NCBI GenBank assembly: GCA_021234155.1
Contig: JAJEKV010000006.1
Span: 8,211,003-8,275,002 of the forward strand
Reading direction: 5' to 3'
Origin: Isoetes taiwanensis
Taxonomy: Eukaryota; Streptophyta; Lycopodiopsida; Isoetales; Isoetaceae
DNA: 64,000 nucleotides
Of this stretch, positions 18,004 through 34,050 are shown one piece after another. Both the position numbers and the translations under genes were made by a program. Below the pieces are notes generated by a model. The model worked only from the letters and a program-made list of their open reading frames with translations, ran no database searches and was not told the DNA's origin. The stretch's first letter is position 1; each line of letters begins with the position of its first letter.

Positions 18004-18550
18004 AAAGGGATTTCAATTTCTTCAAGATACATTTGTTTCTTGAAATGCATTCGATTTAGGAGCAGCTATAATCGATTCGGGCCAAGTTTTCGTTGAGGTA
18101 GAATCAGGAGCCATGTTTAATCGATTGAGGAAAGTTCAAAATGTCGCCAAAGTTTTTTTTTTCGCAGGCAAGATATTTAGATTTTATTGATAGAGAAGCT
18201 AGTACAAGATTTCGGGAGGATTTGGTATAATTATGGAGAATATTGTACGTCAACCGCCTTTATTAATGATAGGCAACTCCATGTAAAATTCAAAATGTAC
18301 ATTACAAACACATTAGAGTTTTTTTGGGTTCACTTATCGTCCCAAGCTCGATGCCAGCATGGAAATCACGCGGCCAATGGGAATTCGGGGGGGGGGGGCT
18401 TTTTCTTCATCCATGCCTCCCCTTCCCATGCAGTGTCGTCAAGATGCAGGTTCGACATTATCCTTACCTACCTGCCCTGGAGGTTCGGTGGGCGGGAAGT
18501 AATAATTACAAATTATTCCCGCCCTGAATTACCGCCCAAATGTTGGGGTG

Positions 18551-18759
18551 TCTATAAGTACCCCCTCCCCTTCCTCAACGGCTCTTCTTTTCTCGTCTCT
18601 CCATCCAGGTTTGCTAATGCTTTCAATCCTTCTAGTTTCTGCGAGCTCATCGATTCGGATTTGTTTGATCTAATTAATTTGCGGTTCATTTTAGATGGCG
18701 ATTACCTCATCCACGGTGAGAACGATTTCTTTGCTTCAATATATTTCTTGGGAGCTTAA
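18551..18759 (+). promoter_or_regulatory. Possible promoter (TATA-like) and pyrimidine-rich leader
   Basis: CTATAAGTA at 18552-18560 is followed by a C/T-rich leader (CCCCCTCCCCTTCCTCAACG, then TCTTTTCTCGTCTCTCC) and an ATG at 18694 opening a 21-codon frame. The same arrangement of TATA-like box, pyrimidine-rich leader and ATG appears before genes C and D at 26.6 and 27.8 kb. No protein is recognised downstream; the sequence to 19600 has only short frames. The G-run at about 18387-18397 lies upstream. Confidence 0.25.
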
Positions 18760-19607
18760 GTGACAATCCGACCGCCACTCGAGAGGTCCTCATCGGGTGA
18801 TCAAAGGGAGAAATGTTATTTCAAGCCATTGGAAGGCTATTGTTGTCGGGTTCGAGGTGAGAGGGGAAGTATATATCAAGGTCGGACACCTATATACACC
18901 CGGCGGACATGAGAAAAGAAAAGATAAGATCTCGGCGTAATTTCCACGAGCCAGGCGAATTGTGAGTTTCATTATATCGTGCTAATCCGTCATTCATTAT
19001 ATTTTGAAGAAATCAACTAATTGGGTTTTACGGTATCTCGAGGGCTCTGTATTTCGAGGTCTTTGGACACGGAACCATCGAAGTTCTATCACAAGCATCT
19101 TCCGTGCTTTCTATTATGATATTGGATCCTTGCTTTTGAAGGTCAAGCGAAGTGGAGCTCTTTGAAAAGGGGATTTGGTTCTTAAAATATGAGTATTATC
19201 CTCGGAAAGGCAAAATTGTGGACTTACCATTGCCCCCATTATCACGCGACTTAGTTCTGCCCAATGGATTCCAATTCTGTTTCTTGCCAAGCTGAAATTG
19301 TCACGAGGAAATTTTCGATTGCTTTGAAGGAGAAAGGTGGAGTCTGTGGACACGTGAAAGTAAATGTACCCATCGATATGTTTATTACCTTGTTTAAGAA
19401 TGTCGAGAATGTTAAGAAGACTTCAAAATGTTTCTTGTAAGTGATTGTCGGTTGTTTACGGATGACATTTTATGTGATGAATGGTCATCCCGTCTGCTGC
19501 ATGAAGGAGTTGAGAAGGTACGGTCTGCGGGATAAAGAAAGAAAGCGTTCGAATCGGGTATTGTATTCGAAAAGCAAAGCAGTTTACATTACCTTCAAAT
19601 ACTGAAG

Positions 19608-19901
19608 ATGGAGGGAAGTAAAAAAGAAGGGAGCAGATGGACGTGGGTTCCAGTGGAACAAGACGATGCTGATGGTACCCATTCTGCGGTCATTGACATT
19701 GCTATCTTCAAAAGTGGTCAATTGTTTAAAACTTTAAAAGTCGAAGAAGCATGGTCTTTATTTGATGTAAGAATTATTTTGGAATCAGAATGTGACTTAA
19801 ACGTCTTCCATTTTTTGGTGGATGGTGTCAAGGTAGGAAAACGTAGGGAAGAATTGTATACAACAAAGCTCTGTATGCCTCCTGTTCAGGGTTGCCCTTA
19901 A
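19608..19901 (+). CDS. Island gene interrupted by a hAT element, unknown function
   Basis: An ATG at 19608 opens a frame of charged, soluble-looking sequence (TWVPVEQDDADGTHSAVIDI, FHFLVDGVKVGKRREELYT). At 19886 a 3.4-kb transposon begins, and the frame runs only five codons into it. The 8-bp target duplication lets the pre-insertion site be read: the frame would pass through the duplicated bases and stop at 23309, nine codons beyond the element. The ORF was therefore intact and about 101 codons long before insertion. No family is recognised. It is the left-most gene of the palindrome-bearing island, with palindromes starting 78 bp after that stop. Confidence 0.55.
   Translation: MEGSKKEGSRWTWVPVEQDDADGTHSAVIDIAIFKSGQLFKTLKVEEAWSLFDVRIILESECDLNVFHFLVDGVKVGKRREELYTTKLCMPPVQGCP
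19879..19886. repeat. Target-site duplication, left copy
   Basis: CTCCTGTT at 19879-19886 is repeated exactly at 23275-23282, immediately outside the terminal inverted repeats. Eight bases is the hAT-superfamily duplication length. Confidence 0.9.
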
Positions 19902-22900
19902 GGTCAAATCTGCATAGGCATAATTTAGAAAGTCAGGCGAATCATAGGCTTTTGAAATTAGTAGCATTGGCGAATGTTTTCCCGACTCGAATTATAATCA
20001 TAGAAATGTAGGCGAACATTTTTTCTATGTAGACTTTAAATAACCGCACAAGTTTTTGTTGCCCATAGTTAGTCGAGCACACAAAGTACATGGACATGCA
20101 TATTAGAATATATTCCCATTGCTTTTTTCAAATGGTCTATGGTTTTTTCAGGAGCTATGGAATGGTTTTTTCGGGAGGCTCTTATTTCTTCTTCAATGCT
20201 TTAAGGTTGCTCAATTGAACTATGGAATGGTTGGGGATGAAGTTTATGGCAACATAAAATGGCTTTTCTAACCGAATGCTAGAGAATCAATTCAACATTG
20301 TTAACCTCATAGTAGTATAATTTTTTTGCATGATCAAACACACATCTTTTTAAAAAGAACGATATAGTAGGGTTCAAAGTGTACAATAATGCTTCATTAA
20401 CTACAGGGATGTTCAGTTTGGTCTATATTAGGGATGGGACAAATAGGTGAGTAACAACAGACAACCACTGTGATGTAAACTCCTACTCATCAAATCGGAT
20501 TTACTGTACATTCATGTCTCTATAGTCAATTATACTTATTTGAGAAGAAGCGATGTAAAGTTGAATTTTAGAACATAAGATTCTCTTCAAGCAGAACCTG
20601 ATGATAGAAAATCATGTCGATCATGATTTTTAGCTGTTTTGTGGATGCAAATGTTTTAACAAATTTTTGTAATAATCACAAGACAGACAACAATTTATAT
20701 GCATACGTATGTAATAAGAAAGTTTGCAGTCTTATTGTATCCACCTTGTTCTCCTGTGCAAGTTTATTATATACAATCGATAATTCTAGAAGAAATGAAA
20801 GAATAATGAAGAGACTAAGGCTTGGGAACTCCAGTAGAGAGCTCAAGATTAATAACCTGCAACAAAAATAATGTGGTCATGACAAGAATCTGAGCTATGG
20901 CCAGAAAACCAAAAATAATTTATACCTCCCGTGGTGTCGACCTATCAAGGTACATGATGATTGCTCGTAAGGAGTTGCCATGCGCTGCAATCATAATGTT
21001 TTTGCCATTTGCAAGCCTATTTGGAACAAACTGCAATGTTACATTGTAAATGCTTCGAATCCAAATATGAGCCTTTTGAGATTACGAAAACAACTTAAGC
21101 TCAGAATATAATATTCCTCTTTTCTCAAAGCTTTGAGCATCTTTTGCAATCTCCTTTTATTTGGGGAAGTTGTTGTATACTAAGGTTTTCTACCACTTAT
21201 TATATACCTTGTCCTTAAAGTATGCAGCACTGCTCGTTACGCACACATGGCAAGGCTTTCACCATTTGGAATGTCATAACTCCTCCTCCATTCCATAACT
21301 TTCTCGGTTCCAAATTTCTCCACGTTTCCTTCTTGTTCAAGTCCCGAAGTTCTCCATACCTGCATTTCCCAAGAGCAAAGACATCTGCGATTAACTTTTT
21401 AATATGCATAATCCTTAACAAGCGGGCTAACATTAATATTAATATGCACTTCATCTTCGGTCGAACTCTTGCATAACTTAATCTTTGTAAGTGACATTAC
21501 AAGATATTACTAGAGAAAAATGTCACCTCTTTGCCTTTTGTAACTAATTACATACGCCTTTAGAAACAAAACTGAATAAACAAACCCATGTTTAACTTTG
21601 TCATGCTGATTATTTAGAATTCAAAATTTATAAGCAAATATCACAATAATCATGCAAATCTTACATTCTTTCATTCAGCTCGAGGCGTGCAAGAATAACT
21701 GGGATGGTCTCTTTTCGGTGGGGGCGAGTTGAACATTCTGCTCCAAGCCACCGCCCCCTGCCGCTTTCATTATGCAAAATAACGGGACTCGCATGCGAGG
21801 TTCCGCCTCATAAGAAAAACCAGTATATGAGGTAGCTTTACCATACTACGGCAAATCATCAAATCAAGGTATATATGAACAATTATTACTAATACACGTA
21901 CGATCGTTGCTCCTAATCTTACTTCAAAATAACTAATTACTCACCTTCTTCATTCGATGTTGTGTCATGGCCAACATTGTCGTCATTTGTGCACGGATCA
22001 GTGCTGAAGTGAAAATAATGTCCACTGGTAGATCACATATCCTCTTTCCAGCTTCAATGGCTTCCATCAACACATCCAGTAAATAAATTCTTCTGATTCC
22101 AAAGTGATTCTCCATGTCGGATCAATATCAAAGCGGATTCTCCTGTTACATCCAGTGAAGGGGAACACACATTCTGCCCACTTCTATGCATCAAGGACAT
22201 AGATCTCGACGGAGAAGCCAATCCTAGAGCCATAATTTGTGGGTGAAGAAAAAAAATCTATGAAGAAAGGATGCTGCATACTGTTGTTGAGAAGCAGAAT
22301 TTCTGAGGCTAAGTAGCAAAAGTTGAACTGGGGGTGTGGGAAGGAGTTGTTTACATCTTCATAAACTATTCAGGATATCATTATTAGAGTTTCCAAAGGG
22401 TCTTAAACTAGAAGAGACTAAATATATCAAGACATGCTATTTACAATAGTTCTATCTCAAATTCAAAGTCACTGCTAAATTTTAAAAGTACGTAAAAACT
22501 GAATCTTCTTGCAATATGTAGACAGTTTAATCAGTTTTTGCGTGAACAATATTTAACCTTTTTCACTTGAGCCTACATTGTGTCTAAAATCCTTTAGAGT
22601 GTACAACGCAATGAACAAGCTTCTAACTACAATACAGTACTCATGTTATGATTGACTTACCTCTGCTAGATTTGGTCAGTGTTTTAGCTGTGAAAAATCA
22701 GATCCAAGAATCAATGGCATCTAGCGTGGCAGATTACCCAAATGACTTTTGCATTTGTCATTTGGCATTTGTCCACAATCGAACCAACCTGACTACAAAA
22801 TTATGAGCATCACGTTAGGGAAAGAAGTAATTAAAAAAAACACAAATATATCTAGTCCTATATCTGAATCTTGCTGTGACCTGTATGTAAAAGTAGTAGT

Positions 22901-23274
22901 GGCTGCAATTTTTTTCCTCAAAGATGAATCCTCCAAAAAGTCATAATCCTATTTCGAATTAGTAGCATCAAGAATACAGAAGCTTTTGTGAATGCACAAA
23001 CATGCTAGCAAAAAGATTACCTAATATGGAAGGGTATCAAGAGGCGAATCCACCAGATCGGCCTAGCACCTCGGTAGAAATGGCGGCGAAATCGTAGACG
23101 GCGGCCCAAGAATGTAGGGCGAAACAAAAAAAAATGAGTAGAAGAACCATCAAAATTCGGCGAAAATTCAAAAATCAATATTTAATAGTATTCTACTAAG
23201 GTTTCGTACGACATTCTTAAAAATAACCAAAATATAGCCATTGGGCTAAAATTCGCCCCTTAAGGGCAACCCTG
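19887..23274. mobile_element. 3.4-kb non-autonomous hAT element carrying a captured gene
   Basis: The termini are perfect 17-bp inverted repeats: CAGGGTTGCCCTTAAGG at 19887-19903 and its reverse complement at 23258-23274. They are flanked by the exact 8-bp duplication CTCCTGTT. CAGGG ends and 8-bp duplications are hAT hallmarks. No transposase is visible inside. Instead the minus strand holds at least six exons of a phosphoglycerate mutase gene (20828-22233). It is therefore a gene-carrying, non-autonomous (Pack-type) hAT element that needs an enzyme supplied elsewhere. It landed inside an open reading frame of the palindrome island, so it is younger than the island. Confidence 0.9.
20828..22233 (-). 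pseudogene. Captured cofactor-dependent phosphoglycerate mutase (dPGM) pseudogene
   Basis: The enzyme interconverts 3- and 2-phosphoglycerate in glycolysis. The minus strand starts with ATG at 22233, a transit-like Ser-rich stretch, then LILIRHGESLWNQKNLFTGC with the catalytic RHG histidine. AIEAGKRICDLPVDIIFTSA and LIRAQMTTMLAMTQHR end at a GTGAGT donor (21945). The next exon (about 21785-21665) reads HNESGRGR ... ETIPVILARLELNERM. Then come YGELRDLNKKET with WRRSYDIPNGES (about 21370-21205), NIMIAAHGNSLRAIIMYLD (about 21030-20927) and LELSTGVP (20856-20828). Defects: about 26 bp lost after FTGCVD causing a frameshift, a TAA plus a shift after GESLAMCA, and no C-terminal exon. Introns are retained, so it was captured as genomic DNA and not by retrotransposition. 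Confidence 0.88.
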
Positions 23275-23282
23275 CTCCTGTT
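23275..23282. repeat. Target-site duplication, right copy
   Basis: CTCCTGTT, identical to 19879-19886. The downstream 27 bases to 23309 complete the interrupted reading frame. Confidence 0.9.
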
Positions 23283-23386
23283 GTACTTTCTTTAAGTGAA
23301 AACAGTTAAACAAATAAATAACAATGGTGTTACTGGGTTCAAATCCCAGTGTTGTTTGCCAATAACTTATATCCTTTTGCAAAGAT

Positions 23387-23609
23387 AGCACCGTGGCCAG
23401 GGTGCGAAATATGTGGAGTTCGTATAGTCGTGTTGTGTAGTTTCGCACCGTGGCCACGGTGTAGTATGTTTTGCAGTTAACATAAATTTGGCCTTCTTTT
23501 CGGCAAAATATCGCACCGTGGCCACGGTGCGAATACCTTATTCTTGTCTTTGGGTTTTACATTTGTTTCGCAAGACCAGGTGGCCCGCGGTGCGGCATAT
23601 TTCGTCGGG
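23387..23609. repeat. Palindrome array, cluster 1 (about 4 units)
   Basis: The unit is a palindrome centred on GGCC: TTCGCACCGTGG followed by its reverse complement. Centres are near 23396, 23453, 23521 and 23583 (spacings 57, 68 and 62 bp). The third unit is essentially perfect, the first two have one or two changes, and the fourth is degraded. The sequences between units are unrelated. The cluster starts 78 bp after the stop of the interrupted ORF and ends before gene A. Confidence 0.85.
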
Positions 23610-23937
23610 GACACTTAAGACATTTTAGTTTGGCGTCAGCTGCTGAGCACTTACTTTTAGGCGATCAGGTTTTTATTGCACTAAAGGAGGGCTACAATTC
23701 CGCAATATCAAGCGGCAGGTCGAGAAAGCTTGGGAACAGCCTGGGCATGGTATGACCAGATCGTCGGGGAAGGAAGCGAGTATCGGTGTCACACCCGGAT
23801 GAGTTCGCTCAATGACACGAAAACCGGTGAAGACGCCTAATTGTAGTCTACAATAACTTCGCCCTAACGGTAGATATAATCTCACGAGGCTAACAAACAC
23901 TGGCCCGGCGTGTATGGTCGATTACATTCATGGTTTC

Positions 23938-25186
23938 ATGGCGTGTGGCGGGAAGCGTCCTTCTCCCTCATTTGGGAAGATTGTATTGAGTCTAAAGTCC
24001 TTCTGAAGCTTTTTCCCAAAGGTGACCAAGATAAGGTTGAAGGTCGTTCAAGAGACGCCGACCGACTTATGTGAGAAGGATGGGAAGGATAATTTATATC
24101 CGATTGACATCATGTTTGCTACTTACATGATATATACGGTTCCACCAACAGATAGGAAGAACCACGGTGAAGGCTATTGCAGAACCTCAGTCACCTGTAG
24201 AGGAGGTATTTGATGCAGAGAAAGAGAAGGAACTGGTGGAAAAGCTCAACGAGGACGAGGATGAAGACGTAGACGAGCATGAAGAGAATCTTGATAGATG
24301 GGGTGTCACGGAAGCCTTGCCAGTTAATATAGGAGGGAAGGACTATCTTCTTCTCCACGATATATCTTCCATTCTTGGTTTGAGGGAAGATGAGGTCCTT
24401 GGACAAATCTATGCTTTTCGTTGTTGGTCTAGGCGACTTCATTGACTTTCGAGGAAGTGCCTAGGGACCTGCACGATCTCTTAACTTATGATGGAACTTC
24501 AATAGCTCCTGAGAATGCTTTTGATAGAGTTCTAGAGATGGCAGAAATGGGCTTGAAGGAAGTCTCAGAAGTAAAGTTCGAGGCGAGTACATCAGAAGCT
24601 AAAAAGGATAGTGCAAAACAAGTATCAAAGAGCGAATCAAGCTCTTCAAGGTCGTCCATCAACATTTCTACCAAAGAGGTTATTGCATCTGATGAAGTGG
24701 AGGTAAGCTACCATAAGTTTGCTTATTTTGTTAAGTGCCTAAGAACGATTGTTTATTGCTTGAGAGAGATTTTTGTGGATGATTTTTGCGCCACATGTGA
24801 GTTACCCTTGGCGAGAGATGCAAGTATCGCCCACTATATGGGCTACCTTTATAAGGGAGAGATCGTTGTGTTCCATTCTAAGTACAGCCCATATGGACCG
24901 AAGAGGTCTTGAAACTCAAGGCCCTCTCGTTGATTGGTAATCACATCCCATTATCGCCAATTACGATCGAGTAGTACATTGGGAGAGAGATATCGCCACG
25001 CATATTTTTGGTGGCTTTAATATGTATTCTATGGCTGCCAAGAGTTTGCATTGGCCTTGTCCGGCGTGGATAAGGCTACAATTCGACCCGACTTGGGAAG
25101 AGAGGGAGCCCAGATTCCTCGCCTTATGTACTGTTGCTGGTCTGGTGCAGGAGTCCGAATTGGAAGAAGTCGAAGTGTCCAGATGA
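23938..25186 (+). pseudogene. Island gene A, unknown protein with acidic segment, frameshifted
   Basis: An ATG at 23938 (MACGGKRPSPSFG) begins a coding stretch that must change frame near 24005, 24165 and 24440 and skip a TGA at 24910 to reach the TGA at 25184-25186. Recognisable order: DLCEKDGKDNLYPIDIMFAT; acidic tract EKLNEDEDEDVDEHEENL; VNIGGKDYLLLHDISSILGL (helix-turn-helix-like spacing); LHDLLTYDGTSIAPENAFDR; a Ser/Lys-rich linker; CLREIFVDDFCATCELPLAR with a CxxC pair; and a Trp-rich end (HWPCPAWIRL). No known family is assigned. Intact length would be about 400 residues. A palindrome cluster starts 135 bp downstream, where it converges with B1. Confidence 0.5.
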
Positions 25187-25320
25187 CTTACATGTTTCTA
25201 AGAAAATGAAGTTGTAACCATTGTCAATTAATGCAAAGACTTGTTTGAAATCTCTATTCTTGTTATATCGAACATAAACTTGGTTTTATTTTAATTTGTT
25301 TTACGCTTCTATTTTACTTG

Positions 25321-25516
25321 CAGACCGTGGCCCACGGATGCGAGAAGACCGTGTTGTCCGTGCTTACAACTAACAAATATTCGCACGCGTGGCCGCGGTG
25401 CGAAAATATTTATTCCACATTATGTGGAAAGGTCTATTCGCACCGCCGCCGCCGGTGCGAAAATACTTTGATTCAACGTCTTTGGGTGTGCAATTTCGCA
25501 CCGTGACTACACAACT
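25321..25516. repeat. Palindrome array, cluster 2 (about 4 units)
   Basis: The same palindrome family as at 23.4 kb lies between the convergent 3' ends of genes A (plus) and B1 (minus). Centres are near 25331 (degraded), 25392 (TTCGCACGCGTGGCC half), 25449 (CACCGCCGCCGCCGGTG core) and 25506 (half unit). Spacings are 61, 57 and 57 bp. Most changes keep the symmetry or are single substitutions. Confidence 0.8.
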
Positions 25517-25630
25517 GCGAAGAGAATGCTTATCTGAATTTAGAATCTACATGTAAGGAAAATGGCCAAGAGCTTTCCAAATTGAAAATGTGCGGTAAAT
25601 AGATGGATCATATGTTTCTATCTCTTATGG

Positions 25631-25993
25631 TTACATACTTATAACTAGAGAATGTCCGAAATATTCTAGTAAATGTAATTTAGAACTCATATAAGAGGCA
25701 TAGCATACATAAATGCAGAAGATCATCGCAATCGGGATCATCATGAGCAGCAAGTTGAGTGATGCGATTAATCTCATAGGCGTGACGCTACGGAACCCGA
25801 TGAAGGTGGATAACAACACGATAAACCCCGTTGGAAGAATGATTTTCGACCCTCTCGCTACCCCTTCCACCCGGGGAATCAAGGGGATACCCCTACGAGA
25901 ACATCTATAAAGATCATTATATTTCATAGTGCAAGTAATGGAGTCTATAGGGAAGGTAGACCCCCCGTAATAAGAATAACCAGGCCGAGACAT
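25631..25993 (-). pseudogene. Island gene B1, paralogue of B2, frameshifted
   Basis: Minus strand, start ATG at 25993 (MSRPGYSYYGGS), then DSITCTMKYNDLYRCSRRGI, which aligns with DSITCKMNHENFKQCREREI of B2. The in-frame continuation is hydrophobic, but the neighbouring frame gives VVIHLHRV ... YEINRI, matching DVIIHLIWNREHQMYMIEKI in B2. The hydrophobic reading is therefore a frameshift product and not a membrane segment. A third relative is at 60.1 kb. Family signature: ITCxM, about 12 residues, R-E-I-x-M, a D/W-rich stretch, then D-V-I-hydrophobic-H-L. Function unknown. Confidence 0.5.
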
Positions 25994-26075
25994 AGCAAAT
26001 GGATGTCTTCTCCATTGAATGAATGGAGTTGTACTTATATCGAACAAAATTATTGACATGCACTGTAGCAGCTCA

Positions 26076-26423
26076 TTATTGGTTATATATACGAGCATAA
26101 TGTACAAAATACACGATTATGAACTCTTCAAATAAGTATTGACAATATGATCGGATGACAAGTATTGATTTAGGGGACTCTTTCGAGTCATTGTCACCGA
26201 GCACCCCGGTGATCTTTTCTATCATGTACATTTGATGCTCTCTATTCCATATTAGATGGATGATAACATCGAAGGGATCAGGATAATAGCGAGGATTGAG
26301 AGCGGCAGTGGTCATCCAGTCTTCCATTGATATTTCTCGCTCGCGACACTGCTTGAAGTTTTCGTGATTCATCTTGCAGGTAATGGAATCACGTTCAGGA
26401 CCAGGAGGAGGCCACATGGCCAA
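26076..26423 (-). CDS. Island gene B2, unknown small protein
   Basis: Minus strand, ATG at 26423, 115 codons. It opens MAMWPPPGPERDSITCKM, then REISMEDWMTTAALNPRYYP and DPFDVIIHLIWNREHQMYMI. After KITGV the sequence becomes less conserved, and the true end may be earlier. It lies head-to-head with gene C, with 377 bp between start codons and no palindromes in that gap. It is a paralogue of B1 and of the ORF at 60105-60341. The family is not one I can name. Compact, soluble and Trp/Pro-rich. Confidence 0.6.
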   Translation of the reverse strand: MAMWPPPGPERDSITCKMNHENFKQCREREISMEDWMTTAALNPRYYPDPFDVIIHLIWNREHQMYMIEKITGVLGDNDSKESPKSILVIRSYCQYLFEEFIIVYFVHYARIYNQ

Positions 26424-26580
26424 TGTTGCTGCACTCGGTAATTTGATGTATATTTATACCCACCAAAATTATTGATGGTATGTATGCACCAAAATTATTG
26501 ATCGTATATACATAGAAATTATTGGATTATATACATACTTGTATGGTACTCGTATAATGGCATATATACCTGATTTCTCT

Positions 26581-26800
26581 TTAAATAGGCATCTATGCCT
26601 TCACTGTCTATCATTGTCTTTGCTTCTTGTTTGCTCCTTGCCTCTTGTCTGCTTCTTGTCTGCTTCTTTGCCTCTTTCCCCCTCTTGTCCGCCTCTTGTC
26701 TGCTCCACTAATTTCTTGTCTGATCCACTAATTTCTTGTCTGCTCCTTGCCTCCCTGTCTGCTCCACTAATTTCTCTTCTGCTCCACTAATTTCTTGCAA
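26581..26800 (+). promoter_or_regulatory. Promoter and pyrimidine-rich leader of gene C
   Basis: A TATA-like TTTAAATAG near 26581 is followed by about 200 bases made almost only of CTTGCCTC/CTTGTCTGCTCC/CCACTAATTTCTTGTCTG variants, running directly into TTGCAA and the ATG at 26801. Gene D has an equivalent CTTGATCTTGCTACTTG leader and the same TTGCAAATG start context. The repetition of the arrangement before both paralogues argues that the leader is functional. Confidence 0.45.
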
Positions 26801-27364
26801 ATGGTAACCTTGCAAGAACATCCTCATTGGGCTGATCGGAATACCCGCAAGCGTCGCGGCAGAAATCACGTGCACTTTTTGATGATTTTTTAGCAACTTT
26901 TGGGAGCATCGATGGCGTCCACGGTCCAACCACGAGCTTGCAAGGCGGCTGAGCAACTTCATTATCGATCGCTATACTGCGTCATCTCCCTCCACGGAGG
27001 AGATCAATTCAGTCGAGGCAAGGTTCAATCTAAGTGCTTTGGGACTTCTTGAACCCCCCCAGTTAGAAGATAGGCTAGAACAGGTTGAAGGACATGCTTT
27101 TCCATGGTTTCATGGCCTACTCTACGGATCATGATAGCCTCGGTCATTCCTACTAGTGAGAAGAATAGGATTTATATCCTCATTGAACTTTACAACTTCC
27201 ATTACAAATCTTTTGTGGATATTGGTAAGCTCCTATTCCGTTCCCTTGACTTCAACATCCTGTGGTTACTGTCTAGATTCCCCACCTGGGATACAATTCC
27301 TTGGGATACACGTGACCTATGGCTACATAGCACACATCACATAATACGTACATATCACAGGTGA
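26801..27364 (+). pseudogene. Island gene C, paralogue of gene D, frameshifted
   Basis: The start ATG at 26801 follows TTGCAA and opens MVTLQEHPHWADRNTRKR. Frame changes near 26890 and 26945 lead into LSNFIIDRY ... LSALGLLEPPQLED, and another near 27120 into IYILIELYNFHYKSFVDIGK, LLFRSLDFNILWLLSRFPTW and the end at 27364. GLLEPP and the IY-x-LI-x-x-Y-x-x-x-Y-x-x-F-V block align with gene D. Intact length would be about 185 residues. No known domain is recognised. It is a tandem duplicate with D, same strand, separated by a palindrome cluster. Confidence 0.55.
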
Positions 27365-27552
27365 AGATACTCCATTGGAATATGTGTATAAATTAGATTT
27401 TCATAGAAATTAAGTATAGAAGCAAGTGAGTTTCGTGTAATTAAGTTACATCTTCGTGTAATTAAGTGATTTTCGTGCAATTAAGTAATTAAGTAATATC
27501 TTCTACCATTTTCCTTGTATTTTTTCATGTGATTGTTCTATTTGTGGTCATA

Positions 27553-27627
27553 TTCGGCACCGTAGCCACGGTGCGAAATCGCTTCATTTACAAATTATTG
27601 AAGTGCCTATTTCGCACCGTGGCTCTG
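27553..27627. repeat. Palindrome array, cluster 3 (2 units)
   Basis: Centres are near 27565 and 27622 (57 bp apart). The first unit reads GGCACCGTAGCCACGGTGCG, with one mismatch to perfect symmetry. The second keeps only its left half (TTCGCACCGTGG). It lies 189 bp after gene C and before the promoter of gene D. Confidence 0.75.
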
Positions 27628-27766
27628 ATCTTGCCCTCTCTGAATCCGATTTTCTTACCACCACTTAGAATGGTATAATACTTCAGCATTATTGGTATTA
27701 TTCTTCATCATTCTTGGTATTATACTTCTTGATATTAGTATTATACTTCAACATTATTGGATTCGT

Positions 27767-28061
27767 AGCTATAAATTCTTTCAGCTTGCTTTCACTTCTC
27801 ACCTTTGGTCTTTGGTCTTCCTTGTTCCTTGCCACTTGATCTTGATGTTTGTTCTTCGCTACTTCATCTTGTTCCTTGCTCTTGATCTTGCTACTTGATC
27901 TTGTTCCTTGCTTTCTTGCTCCATGATCTTCCTTCTTTTTTGAACTTCTTGCTCCTTGATCGTCCTTGATCCTTGCTTCTTGCTACTTGATCTTGATGCT
28001 CCTTGCTACTTGATCTTCGTGCTCCTTGTTCTTTGATACTTAATCTTCGTGCTCTTTGCAA
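27767..28061 (+). promoter_or_regulatory. Promoter and pyrimidine-rich leader of gene D
   Basis: CTATAAATT near 27769 is a TATA-like element. It is followed by nearly 290 bases of CTTGATCTTGCTACTTGATC and CCTTGCTT variants on the plus strand, ending TTTGCAA just before ATG at 28062. It matches the gene C leader in composition, length order and start context, though the exact repeat words differ. Confidence 0.45.
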
Positions 28062-28653
28062 ATGATTGGACCGAATCCTCCCTGGGCCACTCCAGAAGGC
28101 CTGCAAGCATGCCCCAGGCATTCTGTGCGGCCTGGAATGGATGAGCTATGGGACCATTTCTTGGAGTGGAGGTTGCGCCCACAGTCCCACCAAGGAGCTT
28201 ACAATGGAGTTGATCAACTTCATTCGTGGAGGCGATTTGATTGTGGTCATGAGCCAGCGATGGAAATTAATCCATCTCGAATGTTATAGGAGACTTGCAA
28301 TGAAGGGACTTCTTGAACCCCCTCCTTATCACGGGACGAGATGCTCTGACAATTGAGGCCTCTTCTTCGTCTTTGGATATTTAGCACACTCTCTCGGATG
28401 CATACATATCGAGTTCATTCATGAAATTAACCGGGGACAGATGTATGGCCTTATTAGGGTGTACTACAACGAGTACAACGGTTTTGTGGAGTTGGGTCCG
28501 CTCTTCTTCCGTGAGTATCATCCTGTGGAATTACTTTTTCTAATGACTAGGTACCCCATATGGTGGGAAGAATCAGGCTGGGAGGAGCGTGAGCTCTTGA
28601 CTCCTAACCCAGATGCATGGGTTAGACCTCGCAGGGGAAGGGGAAGGGGTTAG
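28062..28653 (+). pseudogene. Island gene D, paralogue of gene C, frameshifted
   Basis: ATG at 28062 (MIGPNPPWATPEGLQACPR). One frame change near 28160 leads to KELTMELINFIRGGDLIVVM and LAMKGLLEPP. A second near 28330 leads to LFFVFGYLAHSLGCIHIEFI, MYGLIRVYYNEYNGFVELGP, LFFREYHPVELLFLMTRYPI, and a tail rich in Trp, Glu and Arg-Gly (RRGRGRG) ending at 28653. Gene C aligns along GLLEPP and through the second half. Intact length would be about 195 residues. Function unknown. It converges with the histone-like gene, with palindrome cluster 4 between them. Confidence 0.55.
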
Positions 28654-28789
28654 AAACCTAGAGGAAGGTTACTTGGACATAATTCCGTTACTTGCCGTTC
28701 TCTAAATGTTCTCTAATATGTTAATATATTCTCTAACATGTTAATATGCTCACTTTGATCTTGTGGTTCACCTTCTATGGAATGATTCA

Positions 28790-28926
28790 ATTTCGCACAG
28801 TGGCCACGGTGCGAAATTGCCTGCCCTCACACAGTAACTTACAGGAATTTCGCACCGTGGCCACGGTGCGAAAATACCTCCCTCACAAAGTAATTTATAC
28901 CCATTTCGCACCGTGGCAACGGTGCA
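28790..28926. repeat. Palindrome array, cluster 4 (3 well-preserved units)
   Basis: Centres at 28803, 28860 and 28916 (spacings 57 and 56 bp). The middle unit is perfect: TTTCGCACCGTGG then its exact reverse complement. The others have one change each. Interunit sequences share a little (CCTCACACAGTAA/CTCACAAAGTAA), hinting that the repeat unit once included the spacer. It sits between the convergent 3' ends of gene D (137 bp away) and the histone-like gene (92 bp away). Confidence 0.92.
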
Positions 28927-29017
28927 TTGTAAGTATACATAGAGAATAGATACAATCAAAATACTTAGCAAGCAAACAAAATATACAACAAAGATCGTTT
29001 CATTAATATAAAACACT

Positions 29018-29338
29018 TTACATGCCTCGGAAGTAATTTGTCAAGGCAATATCCTGCCTCATTATTGTCACTCTCTTGGAATGCACAGCACATTTCACAC
29101 AGTCTTCGAAGAACCTGACCATGTGATTCTCAGCGGCCTCGTGCAGAGCATCAAGGGCATCTGCAGTGAATCGAGTCACCTGTTCTGGCATTGGAAAACT
29201 GTAACCAGCTCTCCGGTACCTTGCACCATCCCTCTTCATCTTATTTGTATCTCTCTGAACCACCTCCTTACATATTCTAGCCATTGTGAGCCGGAAGCAC
29301 CCACTCCCGTGGTTACGGAAGTCTTGGGGTTCGCGCAT
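29018..29338 (-). CDS. Divergent histone H3-like (CENH3-like) protein
   Basis: Minus strand, open to 29338, stop at 29018-29020. The C-terminal half is a histone H3 fold: [40 protein letters not shown] and [11 protein letters not shown]. It covers helix 2, the FED and CAxHxKRVTxMxxD signature and helix 3. Upstream, [14 protein letters not shown] can be helix 1, but about 27 residues separate it from RFT, against about six in canonical H3, giving a much longer loop 1. The TA-DAL-ALHEAAE wording is closer to centromeric CENH3 than to H3.1. The normal tail (ARTKQTARKS) is absent in frame; Lys/Arg-rich frames further upstream are broken. A nucleosome-like role in packaging DNA would be expected if expressed, which is inference. 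Confidence 0.75.
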
Positions 29339-29475
29339 CCATCTTAACTTTTGATTAAGCGGTGGCCCTTCTTATTCAGCTTAGGAGGGCCTTTGCAGAA
29401 GAACCTGTTTCTTCTACAGTTGCTTAGGCTTAGTCTTCCTCTTCGTCTCTTGGATTCCGCGACTCAGGCTGCTCA

Positions 29476-30350
29476 TCAGCGGGAACCACGCATCACGGTA
29501 CAGCGGTTTGCACAACCGATCCGCAGTGCTGCCGGTGGCTCTTGTAGAACGATATTTTCTTCTATTTGAGTACATCCGCGAGGGGACACGGAAAGGGACA
29601 TCTGGTACATAATATTGAGGGGGTTCAAAAGCTGCACGAACGGCAATAGGGCGTTACGCGCGGGCACATCACCAACAGGAACATCACGGACATGCACATC
29701 GATGGTCATCCTCATGGGGCTTAGCATTCTCATTGTCGGCTCCAAGCAAGTCCGCCCTGGTTTATCCCCACCAATCAACTTCCGGCTTTGCATGCGAGGA
29801 AGTCCGGTTATGTAATCTATCTCATTAGCGGTCTGAGAGAATGTGTTAGGAGTTGGCGTCAAAGAAGCCATCAACACGGGCCACCGCGGCGAAGGAATGG
29901 AGTGCCTCAAGCAAGGTGTCGGCTCCCATCGAAGGAACAGGCAACGCCGTAATGCGGTGCAACTACCACATCGGCGTTAACGGCGATGCAATCATCGAGC
30001 ACGCGGGAACTCCATGACATGACGGTACGCGCCGCGAAGGTTCCTTCTCGAGCTAAATGGCGAAGAGAACGGTAAACACGCCTTGGCTCGGAAGGTATGT
30101 CTCTAAAAATCTCCCCTGCGTCATTGGCAACATTGAATTCTGGCGTCGGACACGCTTGATGGATGTTTTCGGCTCGGAAGGCGGTTCTCGTTCGGATGTT
30201 AGAAGTTAATCGACATAGCTAGTGGCGCTGCCCTCATTTGTCTTCACCATGATGTGTGCGCCCGGGGCGGCGCCTTCTCTTCTGTTCTTTGGTTGTTGGG
30301 ATTGTTAGATCCGGCATTACCGCTATTAGCGCCATTGTCTACGAATCGTA
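29476..30350 (-). pseudogene. Island gene F, unknown protein, frameshifted
   Basis: Minus strand. It begins in an Asn/Gly-rich stretch near 30350 (AGSNNPNNQRTEEKAPP), with MVKTNEGSATSYVD at about 30252. After a shift it continues as EFNVANDAGEIFRDIPSEPR, YRSLRHLAREGTFAARTVMS and LDDCIAVNADVVVAPHYGVA. A further shift leads to the frame 29910-29476 (EIDYITGLPRMQSRKLIGGD, MRMTIDVHVRDVPVGDVPAR, LLNPLNIMYQMSLSVSP). Intact length would be roughly 280 residues. The sequence looks globular and conserved-protein-like, but I cannot name a family. It is co-oriented with and upstream of the H3-like gene, so the two could be one transcription unit. Confidence 0.4.
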
Positions 30351-30504
30351 ATGCAACAAATGAGTGGACAAGATTGATAAATATGCAATGTAATGACTTA
30401 GAACAAATATCAAAAAGCGGACAACATCGATAACAAAGATAATTATATAAAAGTACCGTTGCTACCGTCTAAAGCGCAAAAGATAGCCACGAAACCAAAT
30501 GCTT

Positions 30505-30652
30505 TTCGCCGACCGCGGGCCGCGGTGCGAATAGCGATTAATCTATAACTAATTCCCAACTTCATTCGCCGCGAGTGGGCCGTCGGTGCGCGTAATACTT
30601 GTCATTCAGCAATTGAATAGCAACTAAGTTCGCACCGTGCCCACGCTGCCAA
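30505..30652. repeat. Palindrome array, cluster 5 (3 degraded units)
   Basis: Centres near 30519, 30579 and 30640 (spacings 60 and 61 bp). Cores read GACCGCGGGCCGCGGTGCGA, GAGTGGGCCGTCGGTGCG and CGCACCGTGCCCACGCTG. It lies 155 bp beyond the start of gene F and just before the 3' end of TE-B. It is the right-most cluster seen, so it may mark the edge of the island. Confidence 0.75.
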
Positions 30653-30718
30653 CCTAACATATTTGAAACATTATAGTTGCACATCATGGTCAATAGTTAT
30701 ACATTAATATGAATTTAT

Positions 30719-32990
30719 TCATACAATTGATTCCCCAGAAGTATATCTTCTACCCTGTCTGATCCTTGTGGATCGCCACGCTTTAACTTGTCTGGCTGCA
30801 CTAGAGCTACACCATATCTGTTTCTTTTTTTCCTGCTCAACTTTTCTCCTCAATATTCTAGCCAACGTCGTGTCTTGTTTAGCTTTATCTTTTTTCTCTA
30901 GCTTGCAGATAATCCTTCTATAGAACCATTGGCACATCTGTTGCAATGAGTTACCACACGAACCTCGATGTTGTGTGAACCTGAAAAAAGCATTCTTGGC
31001 TTGCTTATGTGACTTCTCCATTCCCTGCGTATTCCATATTCCCAAGCTCCCGTACTCTTTGGCAAACCACAAGCCATGGGCATGAAGTATATGAATGTAA
31101 TGTGTGACATTGCATTCTCCCCATGCTTGTATAAACGACTTCGTGAATTCAGTTACTGCTACTCTGAATTCATCTAACTTTCCACCCACCATTTTCTTCT
31201 CTGCCATCAAAGTTACCAGACTGCTCAGATTCTGCCACGCTTTAATTTTCTTTAGTTTTGCCCTCCCACGTGAAGTACGGTCATCTTCTGCTTCCAGCAA
31301 GTCCTTATACCCCTCCCACTTTCCAGTTGGCAATGATCCATTCTTACGTAATTTAGTACAAGGCAGAAATCTCTTCGCTTTCACCCCACCCATAGATGGT
31401 TTATAAGGAACCTTGCCTCCCTTCTTAGGATCTTGCGAGGATTTTATAGTCACCACCATGAAGACCAAGATCAGAAAGCACGCGTTCTCAACATCTTTCA
31501 TACACTTTTCTCGACTGATTGTGGAGACTTATTCCAAGCAAAAAGAATGCTCATGTACACCATCTTATCCACTATTCTTAGAAAGGCATGGAGAGTGCAA
31601 ATATGTACTGAACTCTTCAGAAAACAAAGCGGTAATCGGTTCGCCAAAAGCAGTTATAACTAACTCATTTGGGGAATTTTCAGCATCACGGGGATCAAAG
31701 TTTTGTCCTCCTTCTAACCTTTGGGTGGTTTGCATATCTTTTGGTAGGATAGAAAAAAAAATGGTAAAAACCATGGGGGTCACACCTAAGATTGGAAAGA
31801 TCTACTATCATTCCCTAAATCCCTTTTTATCATCTACCCTAGCATACAAAGCGATTAAGGACATGGCTTAGTTGGTAGTCTTAATCTCAAAAACCATGTT
31901 TCATGTTATACATGCACTTGATGGTCTTTAGATCAGCGGTCACACGGATGCCATTCAACCTCGTAAGGACATCTCGTAACCATGTTTCATGACACACTTG
32001 ATGGTCTTTAGATCGTGACGGATGCCTTCTCTCTCGGACTCCATGAGCAGCAATAATAGTAGGAATAGGTGTCTGCTGAAAGACCCAATGAAGAACACCA
32101 TGATTTTCTTCGGTGCTTGAAATATCCCTATCCACCAAATATGGTCCTCTCGATTGAATCCCTTCCTCATTATCGAATTTGACAACATACTGTTCATTAA
32201 TGTCAAAGAAACCCTCTCATACTTTTCACCTTTGATCAGTTCCATCTCATCCAACTTTATAGCAATTTGGAGTTTCCCTCCACATTCTTCCACTTTCATA
32301 TCATAGAAGCGAACTAACAGAAGAAGCATTTTAGAGATCCATCCAACAATTATTCTTCTCATTAAGAACAAATAGATCATTTCCGGAGCCACCCTTCTTC
32401 TTACTTTTCCCAGTGATTAATGATCCCAAGTGCACGGATGTGGTGATCTGGTACATCTCTCCCAAATGTTCGTGTACTTCTGCATTCCTCTTTGTTACGC
32501 TTTTGCTCGACATAAGCGAGTCTTGGCAAGTATGGTCTTCGTAATACCACTGTTGCTTGATACCATCCACGCAAACATCTAAAGAGAGCAATGTAAGCTT
32601 GTCGATTGATACCCACATTGTCACATAATTCTTGCATGTTATCAAGCACTTTGACTCTTTCCCAATTCAAGTAAGCACTGTTCGAAGAATGACTTTTCTT
32701 AAATGGTTAGCTCGGGAAGCTTCAACATATCTATAACATCATCTTTAGTTACAAGCTTTTTCAACAAACTAGCCATATTACAAGGTTTTCTCTTCTTCTT
32801 TTCAGCCATAGTAGGATCCACCAGATTTTTAATAGCGTGGATCCTTCTTGAAACCCCACCACTAGGGGCAAGTATATTTAGGGCCTTCAGTTCTTTTTTC
32901 CTCTCCCTCATGCCCGGTGGTGTCATTTTCAGTCTTTTTAACTTCCTCTCGGTTTGTCATTGTCCTCGAGCATCTCTTCAATCCTTGTTT
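30719..32990 (-). pseudogene. TE-B: second transposase-like gene, frameshifted
   Basis: Minus-strand pieces: 32926-32699 (basic N-terminus, LKALNILAPSGGVSRRIHAI, KPCNMASLLKKLVTKDDVID), 32670-32401 (VLDNMQELCDNVGINRQAYI), 32392-31955 (KLDEMELIKGEKYERVSLTL) and 31501-30719 (C-terminal). The last holds VTHYIHILHAHGLWFAKEYG and SLGIWNTQGMEKSHKQAKNA, then a basic coiled end. The YIHIL...H...G.L....QG.EK..K..K pattern is shared with the C-terminal helical domain of many uncharacterised eukaryotic DNA-transposon proteins. It seems different from TE-A, which lacks this motif. Catalytic acids could not be assigned. Frames are broken at several points. No terminal repeats were identified. Confidence 0.6.
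31894..32015. repeat. 86-bp-offset direct repeat inside TE-B
   Basis: CCATGTTTCATG followed shortly by CACTTGATGGTCTTTAGATC occurs at about 31892-31934 and again at about 31979-32013. The intervening text differs. It is an internal tandem duplication that breaks the TE-B coding frame between its middle and C-terminal blocks. Confidence 0.7.
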
Positions 32991-32996
32991 AAGTGA

Positions 32997-34050
32997 CTCC
33001 ACCTCCATAAGCAACCTTTGATTGGAAGCTTGCGGTTCTTACGTATTCTTAGACCTGTTGGTTAAGAAATAGTTACACCTTGTTGGAGGTAATTACAATG
33101 TGCTACCATATTGCAATGCACTCCACACAATTGATTGTACATTGTTCTCAAATGCACATCGGAATTACTTGAAATATTATTGCAATAGCCAAGCGGACCT
33201 TGATTACCCTTACGGGCAAAATGAATAAGCCCGATGGAGAATGAAATTCGGGATGTCTTACGGTGATCGGATCGATGGGATCTGATTCCCCCAGCGCCCG
33301 AGAGATCAATATTCATTGCACCGAAGCTCGAAGAGCATTCTCATCGACTGTTCCTTCCGATTATATTGATTTTTATAGGGCAAGCGGTTCTTGGGCACCT
33401 CCACCCGAATTGGCCTTTCGGTTTACGTATTCAAAAAGAATTACTCATTGTCATTGGCGAAATTAATAGAACGATTACCTCCGCCATAGATCGAATTCGA
33501 GAGTTGCGTGATCGCTTTCCGAGCTCCACGGTCCGGTGACCAAATTGATGCAATTCTTCGCCAAAATACGAAGGAAAACTAGAGAATTCCTTGGATTTGC
33601 AGGATTGACATCAAAACTAAATTCGAAATGCCCTCCAAAGCTTTGGCGCCCAATTGAGGCATTCTTGAGGCATCCCGCTCGAAGCTACTCCTTGTAGCTT
33701 CAGTTCGGTGGGAAGGTGGGGGGAGGAGGGATTTAGGCGTAATGAGTAAAACAACAAGTAATAATGACGTTTACCAGGTTCGGTTGCTCCAGGGCTGAGG
33801 TTCGGTTGAGGTTCGTGGGGGCTTTTTGCCCATACCTGCAGGTTCGGGTACCAACTAAAATCCAAATTTGGGAATGGCTTACAAGGGCGTTAATAGACTC
33901 CACCAAACCTCTAATGCTTTAACCCAGTTCAAATTAGATCAATATACAAAAAAATTCAATCACCCTTTCATGCTTCTACCCAAGATATGACAGATGCTAC
34001 GTGAATCGCATGGCTCTTGCCTGGTATCCTAATCTATACAGATCAAATGT
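32997..34050. other. Region without a recognisable gene
   Basis: Short frames only. A plus-strand stretch at about 33355-33520 reads partly as coding (SGSWAPPPELAFRFTYSK in one frame, INRTITSAIDRIRELRDRFP in another), suggesting a frameshifted remnant, but I cannot identify it. Nothing else was supported. Confidence 0.25.

Follow-up and report, generated by a model that had tools for sequence, protein, structure and literature searches.

What kind of element carries five regularly spaced arrays of one GC-rich palindrome in the gaps behind its genes, and what do these arrays do? The question is raised by a stretch of 64,000 nucleotides of the Isoetes taiwanensis genome (assembly GCA_021234155.1, contig JAJEKV010000006.1, positions 8,211,003 to 8,275,002 of the forward strand), which we refer to as the window and whose coordinates are used below. 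The palindrome is a 26-mer, TTTCGCACCGTGGCCACGGTGCGAAA, composed of 11-bp half-sites (TTTCGCACCGT) flanking a partly variable 4-bp centre, and about 16 copies of it, several degenerate, make up five arrays spanning positions 23384–30653. The results indicated that this palindrome “island” is the interior of a repeated, interspersed, multi-gene DNA transposon of Isoetes with terminal inverted repeats (TIRs), and that its arrays are found at the 3′ ends of nearly all its genes.

The limits of the transposon were defined by the sequence common to independent copies. By this definition, the copy in the window extends from 18311 to 33916 and measures approximately 12.2 kb after subtraction of a nested insertion. 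Its left TIR (CATTAGAG..., 18311–18342, plus strand) is identical to the reverse complement of the right end (...CTCTAATG, 33885–33916, minus strand) at 23 of 32 positions. In a genome-wide search, 37 of the best 40 left-end alignments (228 candidates) began at query base 1–3 (18309–18311), and the best 40 of the 189 right-end candidates all ended at query base 137–140 (33916–33919), with 98–100% identity. Among the best 40 of each, the right 137 bp (33780–33916) were 98–100% identical vs 85–93% at the left end, the window copy apart. Six copies (C1026, C954, C1089, C1035, C949, and C908) measure 12.03–12.09 kb by their coordinates, and the remaining end pairs span 3.7 to 16 kb. A target-site duplication (TSD) was found in none of the 15 copies with both ends: no complete direct repeat between 2 and 12 bp in length was common to their flanks, whose mean identity of 0.23–0.34 is close to the 0.23–0.28 of mismatched flanks. 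The motif AAATTT, the target of Spy transposons, was found at none of these 15 insertion sites. At two sites, bases were neither gained nor lost upon insertion. The joined flanks of copy C1058 match other genomic places at equal length (133 bases, up to 98%), and those of copy C1035 match an empty site at equal length (126 bases, 92%). The former copy interrupts a frame that we take to encode a Gypsy-type RNase H, and the latter a frame that presumably encodes a Copia-type reverse transcriptase.

To describe the arrays, each site in the window was scored against TTTCGCACCGTGGCCACGGTGCGAAA. Fourteen array sites matched at 15 or more of the 26 letters, and nine of these matched at 19–26, whereas no match in 10 Markov-shuffled windows exceeded 17. 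Matches of 15–16 letters are not significant by themselves, since the 10 shuffles gave 10–25 positions with at least 15 matching letters; nine such sites of 15–16 letters in the window fall outside the arrays. Two more degenerate palindromes, near 23566 and 30564, were identified by eye, which brings the total to sixteen. Array c1 (23384–23600, end approximate) contains three clear copies and one degenerate copy, with start-to-start distances of 57 and 68 bp, and follows the stop codon of gene D (23307–23309, by eye); in copy L024, this array begins 78 bp after the stop. Array c2 (25318–25519) has four copies between the convergent genes A and C′ (distances of 62, 56, and 58 bp), c3 (27553–27635) has two copies 57 bp apart, and c4 (28791–28929) has three copies between the convergent genes B3 and FH3 (57 and 56 bp). 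Array c5 (30507–30653) lies behind the stop codon of gene Tp and has three copies, of which one is degenerate and lies within a start-to-start distance of 121 bp. The original prediction, made from the sequence of the window, of some 16 palindromes in five clusters spaced mostly 56–62 bp apart was thus borne out. It had also pointed to two misfits in an otherwise regular layout. The arrays are as it described, and both misfits have disappeared: the Tp stop (30719, minus strand) is 66 bp from the edge of c5, and the supposed gap between two genes, F and H3, is part of a single gene, as is evident from copy L020.

We extended the analysis to the whole assembly (1,658,258,908 bases in 1110 contigs), in which the exact 24-mer of the palindrome occurs 158 times and its reversed control does not occur. 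In 27 genomic records, 84 of the 123 neighbouring pairs less than 200 bp apart were exactly 57 bp apart, and 96 were 56–58 bp apart. A typical array consists of mostly 2–9 dyad-symmetric sites with a period of mostly 57 bp, usually 66–250 bp past a stop codon. Of the 158 palindrome places, 50 were checked, and all 50 are in the element family or within 15 kb of it: 37 have an H3 match or an element end no more than 15 kb away, five are in mapped loci, and eight were fetched. Among the fetched places, seven match the genes and arrays of the element, and one (L053) contains only approximately 140 bp of element sequence together with its array. The H3 matches and ends used for the 15-kb proximity test were those among the best 150 H3 matches and the best 40 of each end that fall on contigs with listed palindromes. 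From these 50 places, an ordinary satellite DNA was accordingly rejected as the source of the palindromes.

The position of the arrays relative to genes was examined in 13 mapped places, using palindromes that match at 17 or more letters; C222, a rearranged short relative, was excluded from these counts. A gene 3′ end within 600 bp faces 46 of the 50 arrays. The other four have lost a neighbour through the nested hAT insertion (window), other insertions (C908 and C904), or truncation (C952a), and every array with both neighbours present faces a 3′ end. Viewed from the genes D, A, B, C′, FH3, and Tp, a palindrome lies no more than 500 bp from 52 of the 62 3′ ends (C′, 9/9; FH3, 12/13; A, 8/9; B, 11/14; D, 6/8; and Tp, 6/9), whereas 689 of 3900 stretches of 500 bp chosen at random from these places contain one (18%). 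The distance from stop codon to array was at most 254 bp in 57 of 63 cases and recurs gene by gene: 67–70 bp for Tp in 6 of 8, 92 bp for FH3 in 8 of 12, and 103 bp for A in 5 of 10. The divergent gap between the starts of C and B2 (26454–26802) contains no palindromes in the window or in seven other copies (0/8). These results support and extend the earlier claims that the arrays stand at gene 3′ ends, two of them between convergent genes, and that the divergent gap is empty, and they show that the palindromes are not scattered at random with respect to genes.

The gene order from left to right is D, c1, A, c2, C′, C, B2, c3, B3, c4, FH3, c5, and Tp, with D, A, B2, and B3 on the plus strand and C′, C, FH3, and Tp on the minus strand. 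The copy in the window is decayed, and several of its frames are broken. Gene D is a remnant (18990–23309, left limit approximate) whose frame is open in L015, L020, and L024. Gene A, also a remnant with broken frames (23690–25186), was located by tblastn with the frames of other copies, and its frame in L020 has no Pfam match. Genes C′ (25631–26116) and C (26076–26453) have frames of 161 and 125 amino acids, respectively, with similar starts. The B2 remnant (26811–27364) is 34% identical to B3 over 55 amino acids, and B3 (28063–28653) has a related frame of 237 amino acids in L022 (L022:1153–1863). None of the frames scanned for A, B, C′, and D matched a Pfam family. Gene FH3 (29018–30461) has a broken frame here, with a long N-terminal part and a C-terminal H3 fold, and Tp (30719–33068), also broken, is the presumed transposase. 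This assignment is suggested by its position and conservation: Tp matched no credible family in Pfam or PDB, including a search of a Tp profile against PDB, and no relative was found in prokaryote contigs. Its C-terminus may resemble that of RAG1/Transib-like transposases. AlphaFold models built from single sequences had a mean predicted local distance difference test score of 37.5 for the window Tp frame and 43.8 for the H3 frame, and were discarded.

The element encodes its own H3-like histone. Sites of this histone are at 29018–30461 in the window, L020:2406–3863, and L016:7220–7669, and in L020 FH3 is a single open frame of 486 amino acids. The Pfam Histone family was matched with E = 3.4e-12 by FH3 of the window and with E = 4.9e-17 by that of L020 (profile positions 5–118 of 122, amino acids 343–480), and PDB H3 chains match FH3 with E down to 2.1e-12, so FH3 is predicted from these alignments to carry a complete H3 histone fold. 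In L020, the fold is preceded by 302 residues with 23 lysines and arginines vs 34 aspartates and glutamates, i.e., a net acidic extension. A canonical short tail with the K9/K27 contexts was not found: neither ARKS nor ARTK occurs in any of five FH3 frames (two long ones, one of which has 2 stops, and three fragments). Among the best 150 H3-like places genome-wide, seven have no internal stops, with open frames of 457–567 amino acids.

A second subfamily, represented by L016, L022, and L023, differs from the type in the window. In L016 and L022, FH3 is placed between A and C′ rather than between Tp and B3, and arrays are found behind both A and FH3. In L022, Tp directly faces B3, and an array occupies this new convergent gap. 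Across six array groups, half-site identity was 81–98% and the period was 57 bp in 41 of 52 cases, whereas the median identities of spacers between groups were 23–37%, compared with 29% for shuffled spacers. Positions 12 and 15 of the palindrome vary most, and one of the two is usually changed in the second subfamily. Divergence between the subfamilies was estimated from one pair per gene. Tp is 65% identical in amino acids over 163 codons, with a near-identical C-terminal stretch and saturated synonymous sites (proportions of synonymous and nonsynonymous differences, pS and pN, of 0.795 and 0.23). The synonymous divergence (dS) of gene A was 2.5, with a ratio of nonsynonymous to synonymous divergence (dN/dS) of 0.15, and the values for the H3 part were 2.0 and 0.31. 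Because these ratios are low at saturated or nearly saturated synonymous sites, Tp, A, and the H3 part appear to be under selection. B3 has diverged far less (dS of 0.148, ratio of 0.40), which points to exchange. Between two FH3 copies of the window type, dN/dS was 0.92, as expected of dead copies.

The layout had been thought to suggest a large-virus-like or giant mobile element. A compact, multi-gene mobile element it is, but a viral origin is not supported and was rejected: the element is a TIR transposon in many interspersed copies, and a six-frame Pfam search of 23300–32301 found no viral hallmark gene (capsid, polymerase, or packaging ATPase). The histone was the sole domain in that search at E ≤ 0.1; 18311–19886 and 32302–33916 were covered by Pfam through selected frames only. 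In IMG/VR, no relative was found for the exact palindrome, Tp, FH3, or the Tp alignment. A CRISPR array, against which the original prediction had argued, was also rejected: the spacers of a given array resemble one another (median identity of 0.65), and the six-frame search found no cas family.

Parts of the element resemble several known systems, and the defining set of none was found in it. The VANDAL/VANC system of Arabidopsis, which is Mutator-like, is likewise a plant DNA transposon with family-specific tandem motif arrays in non-coding DNA (PMC5735166, PMC10398659). The VANC motif, however, has nine bases in one orientation, diverges rapidly, and is found upstream of genes and in introns, whereas the Isoetes element has a long palindrome with stable half-sites at 3′ ends. 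Spy, of the PHIS superfamily, is also a DNA transposon without a TSD, but it inserts within AAATTT (PMC4482050), and the Isoetes element further differs in its length of about 12 kb, its at least seven genes, and a Tp unlike any recognised family. The homologous regions (hrs) of baculoviruses similarly have palindromes of approximately 30 bp at several places of one element, and those of Autographa californica multiple nucleopolyhedrovirus are imperfect (PMC6669502); they are viral replication origins, and differ in sequence, host, and gene content. The 3′ hairpins of mimivirus-type viruses are palindromes behind stop codons as well, with stems of at least 13 bp and loops of up to 5 (PMC8557863), and are described as A/T-rich, whereas the Isoetes palindrome is a single fixed GC-rich sequence in multi-copy arrays, and no covariation was found in its inner stem. 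The SIRC elements of Arabidopsis share short repeats, unlike spacers, and a link to transposable elements, but their repeats are 10–29 bp, approximately 57% lack palindromes, and the available part of the account was not found to describe a gene-end rule (PMC10342631). Lastly, fungal TET/JBP DNA transposons also carry a chromatin-related accessory gene, which is thought to aid escape from silencing; that gene encodes a dioxygenase, not a histone, and the described lineages have TSDs (PMC12730594).

What, then, do the arrays do? We tentatively favour, at somewhat less than an even chance, the reading that they are dyad protein-binding sites that form two-way boundaries at gene ends, i.e., a gene-end signal of the transposon. 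A dimeric protein, either the element's or the host's, would bind the palindromic sites, and the bound array would act as a transcription boundary that could serve genes from either side because the site is palindromic. Such a boundary would end or block read-through between the packed tandem and convergent genes, and less read-through would mean less antisense RNA and less silencing of the element. The pattern at positions 12 and 15 is as if one intact half must stay: among 169 copies, one compensated double change was observed vs 6.8 expected, together with five uncompensated ones.

Several observations weigh against this reading. Since the copies are related, the 46 of 50 arrays do not amount to as many independent tests; in a single element, arrays are present in 5 of 6 gaps with a 3′ end and absent from all 3 gaps without one, for which the chance is 6 in 126, and the arrays of B2 and B3, which are duplicates, may have been inherited. 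For gene C, in tandem ahead of C′, just 1 of 9 copies has a palindrome at a distance of up to 500 bp, and none is found at 10 of the 62 other 3′ ends, in some cases because of insertions and in some apparently by decay (best match of 15–16). The c2 spacers at the same place can be identical across the subfamilies (L006 and L016), so spacer decay is not uniform. No DNA-binding domain other than the histone fold was recognised in the proteins of the element. A stem that is conserved around a variable 4-nt centre would also fit a sequence-specific hairpin, and compensated double changes number 18 at the outermost pair (1/26), vs 7.6 expected, and two at pair 10/17, vs 0.5. The tests of covariation and folding are themselves weak, because dead, freely mutating copies dominate.

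That the arrays are, as the original prediction suggested, RNA hairpins which, as in mimiviruses, set cleavage or termination at transcript 3′ ends when folded seems to us doubtful. Their location behind stop codons, a predicted fold of −16.5 kcal/mol, and the excess of compensation at the outermost pair are in keeping with this idea, as is the tolerated variation at the would-be loop bases 12 and 15. However, the check for compensatory changes, for which the power was low, favoured hairpins only at that outermost pair: inner pairs 5–11 have two compensatory double changes vs 2.45 expected, and the natural pairs of arms are predicted to fold no more stably than randomly re-paired ones. The stem sequence itself is fixed, the “loop” positions 13 and 14 are 94–95% conserved, and a 57-bp period of multiple copies does not follow from a hairpin signal. 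As a plant nuclear element, the transposon would use RNA polymerase II. A closer competitor, possible although we would not expect it, is that the arrays are anti-silencing docking sites comparable with those of VANC, where a protein of the element binds tandem motifs in non-coding DNA and clears silencing marks from it; gene ends would then simply be the available room, and FH3 could add an H3 without the usual tail. The restriction of the palindrome to one transposon family in the 50 places checked, the variable array size, and the five FH3 frames without ARKS and ARTK are consistent with such docking, and so is the observed/expected CpG ratio, which is 0.82–0.91 in the element vs 0.45 in the left flank, though it is 0.70 in the right flank. 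VANC targets, however, are also upstream and intronic whereas the palindromes avoid the start gap, the half-site is nearly constant between the subfamilies, and the scanned frames of A, B, C′, and D had no Pfam match. Docking sites and boundaries are close to each other as explanations, and both could be one system.

The arrays might instead be recombination joints, kept for gene shuffling, inversion, or homogenisation between copies, with no role in expression. In one locus (L021 and L028, C952:15765001–15779500), the segment from c2 to c5 is inverted, with both breakpoints inside palindromes of the arrays (25371–25411 and 30508–30535 in window coordinates); FH3 is relocated in the second subfamily, and divergence is mosaic, with B3 far from the saturation seen elsewhere. 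Exchange is nevertheless expected as a by-product of any repeat, and avoidance of the start gap and the period would be left unexplained; we regard this as quite unlikely. It is less probable still that they are functionless selfish repeats which spread in tolerated gaps and are homogenised. The likeness of spacers within an array implies that arrays turn over, and the outer arm tends to be missing from edge units (by eye), but homogenisation of whole units would also even out the spacers between arrays, and only the half-sites and the period are common. Least probable of all are replication or enhancer arrays like baculovirus hrs. The hr palindromes are likewise clustered at a regular pitch; against this stand the transposon ends, the absence of an IMG/VR relative, and the failure to find a replication gene by Pfam in 23300–32301, and an enhancer need not occupy 3′ ends.

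Some further features of the locus and its relatives were noted. The nested insertion in gene D (19887–23276), which we take to be a hAT element, is 3390 bp long, with 17-bp TIRs and an 8-bp TSD, CTCCTGTT, determined by eye. It is outside the palindrome system, is missing from L012, L015, L020, and L024, and is younger than its host transposon. A short relative of approximately 4.4 kb (L009:4142–8499, and L008) has longer TIRs and 14–19 palindromes in rearranged arrays; because the left flank is common to both, L008 and L009 appear to have arisen by segmental duplication. A tRNA-like T-arm (GGGTTCAAATCCCAGT) separates the D stop from c1 (23330–23360), and a similar one is present in L015. Some spacers have short inverted repeats of their own, identified by eye: TTCCACAT..ATGTGGAA and GGCAGT..ACTGCC (c2, 25406–25435; L016:5898–6172). 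Pyrimidine-rich repeats of the CTTGCTCCTTGATC type are found upstream of the starts of B2 (26600–26800) and B3 (27800–28050).

No published account of this transposon was found among the open-access papers searched, and the exact half-site was found in none of them. A broader proposal, which we consider improbable as a whole, is that the element represents a new transposon superfamily without a TSD or target motif, with its own long-tailed H3 that lacks the silencing lysine contexts and palindromic boundaries bound by its own protein, so as to form an insulated, hard-to-silence domain. A TIR element that has neither a TSD nor an AAATTT target is in itself a testable oddity. So is the H3-like histone of the transposon, with its low dN/dS between the subfamilies, and it is relevant to the ways in which transposons evade silencing by chromatin. 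If the boundary reading is true, the arrays would constitute a gene-end element of a plant nuclear genome that is defined by its sequence, works in both directions, and is short enough for direct testing.

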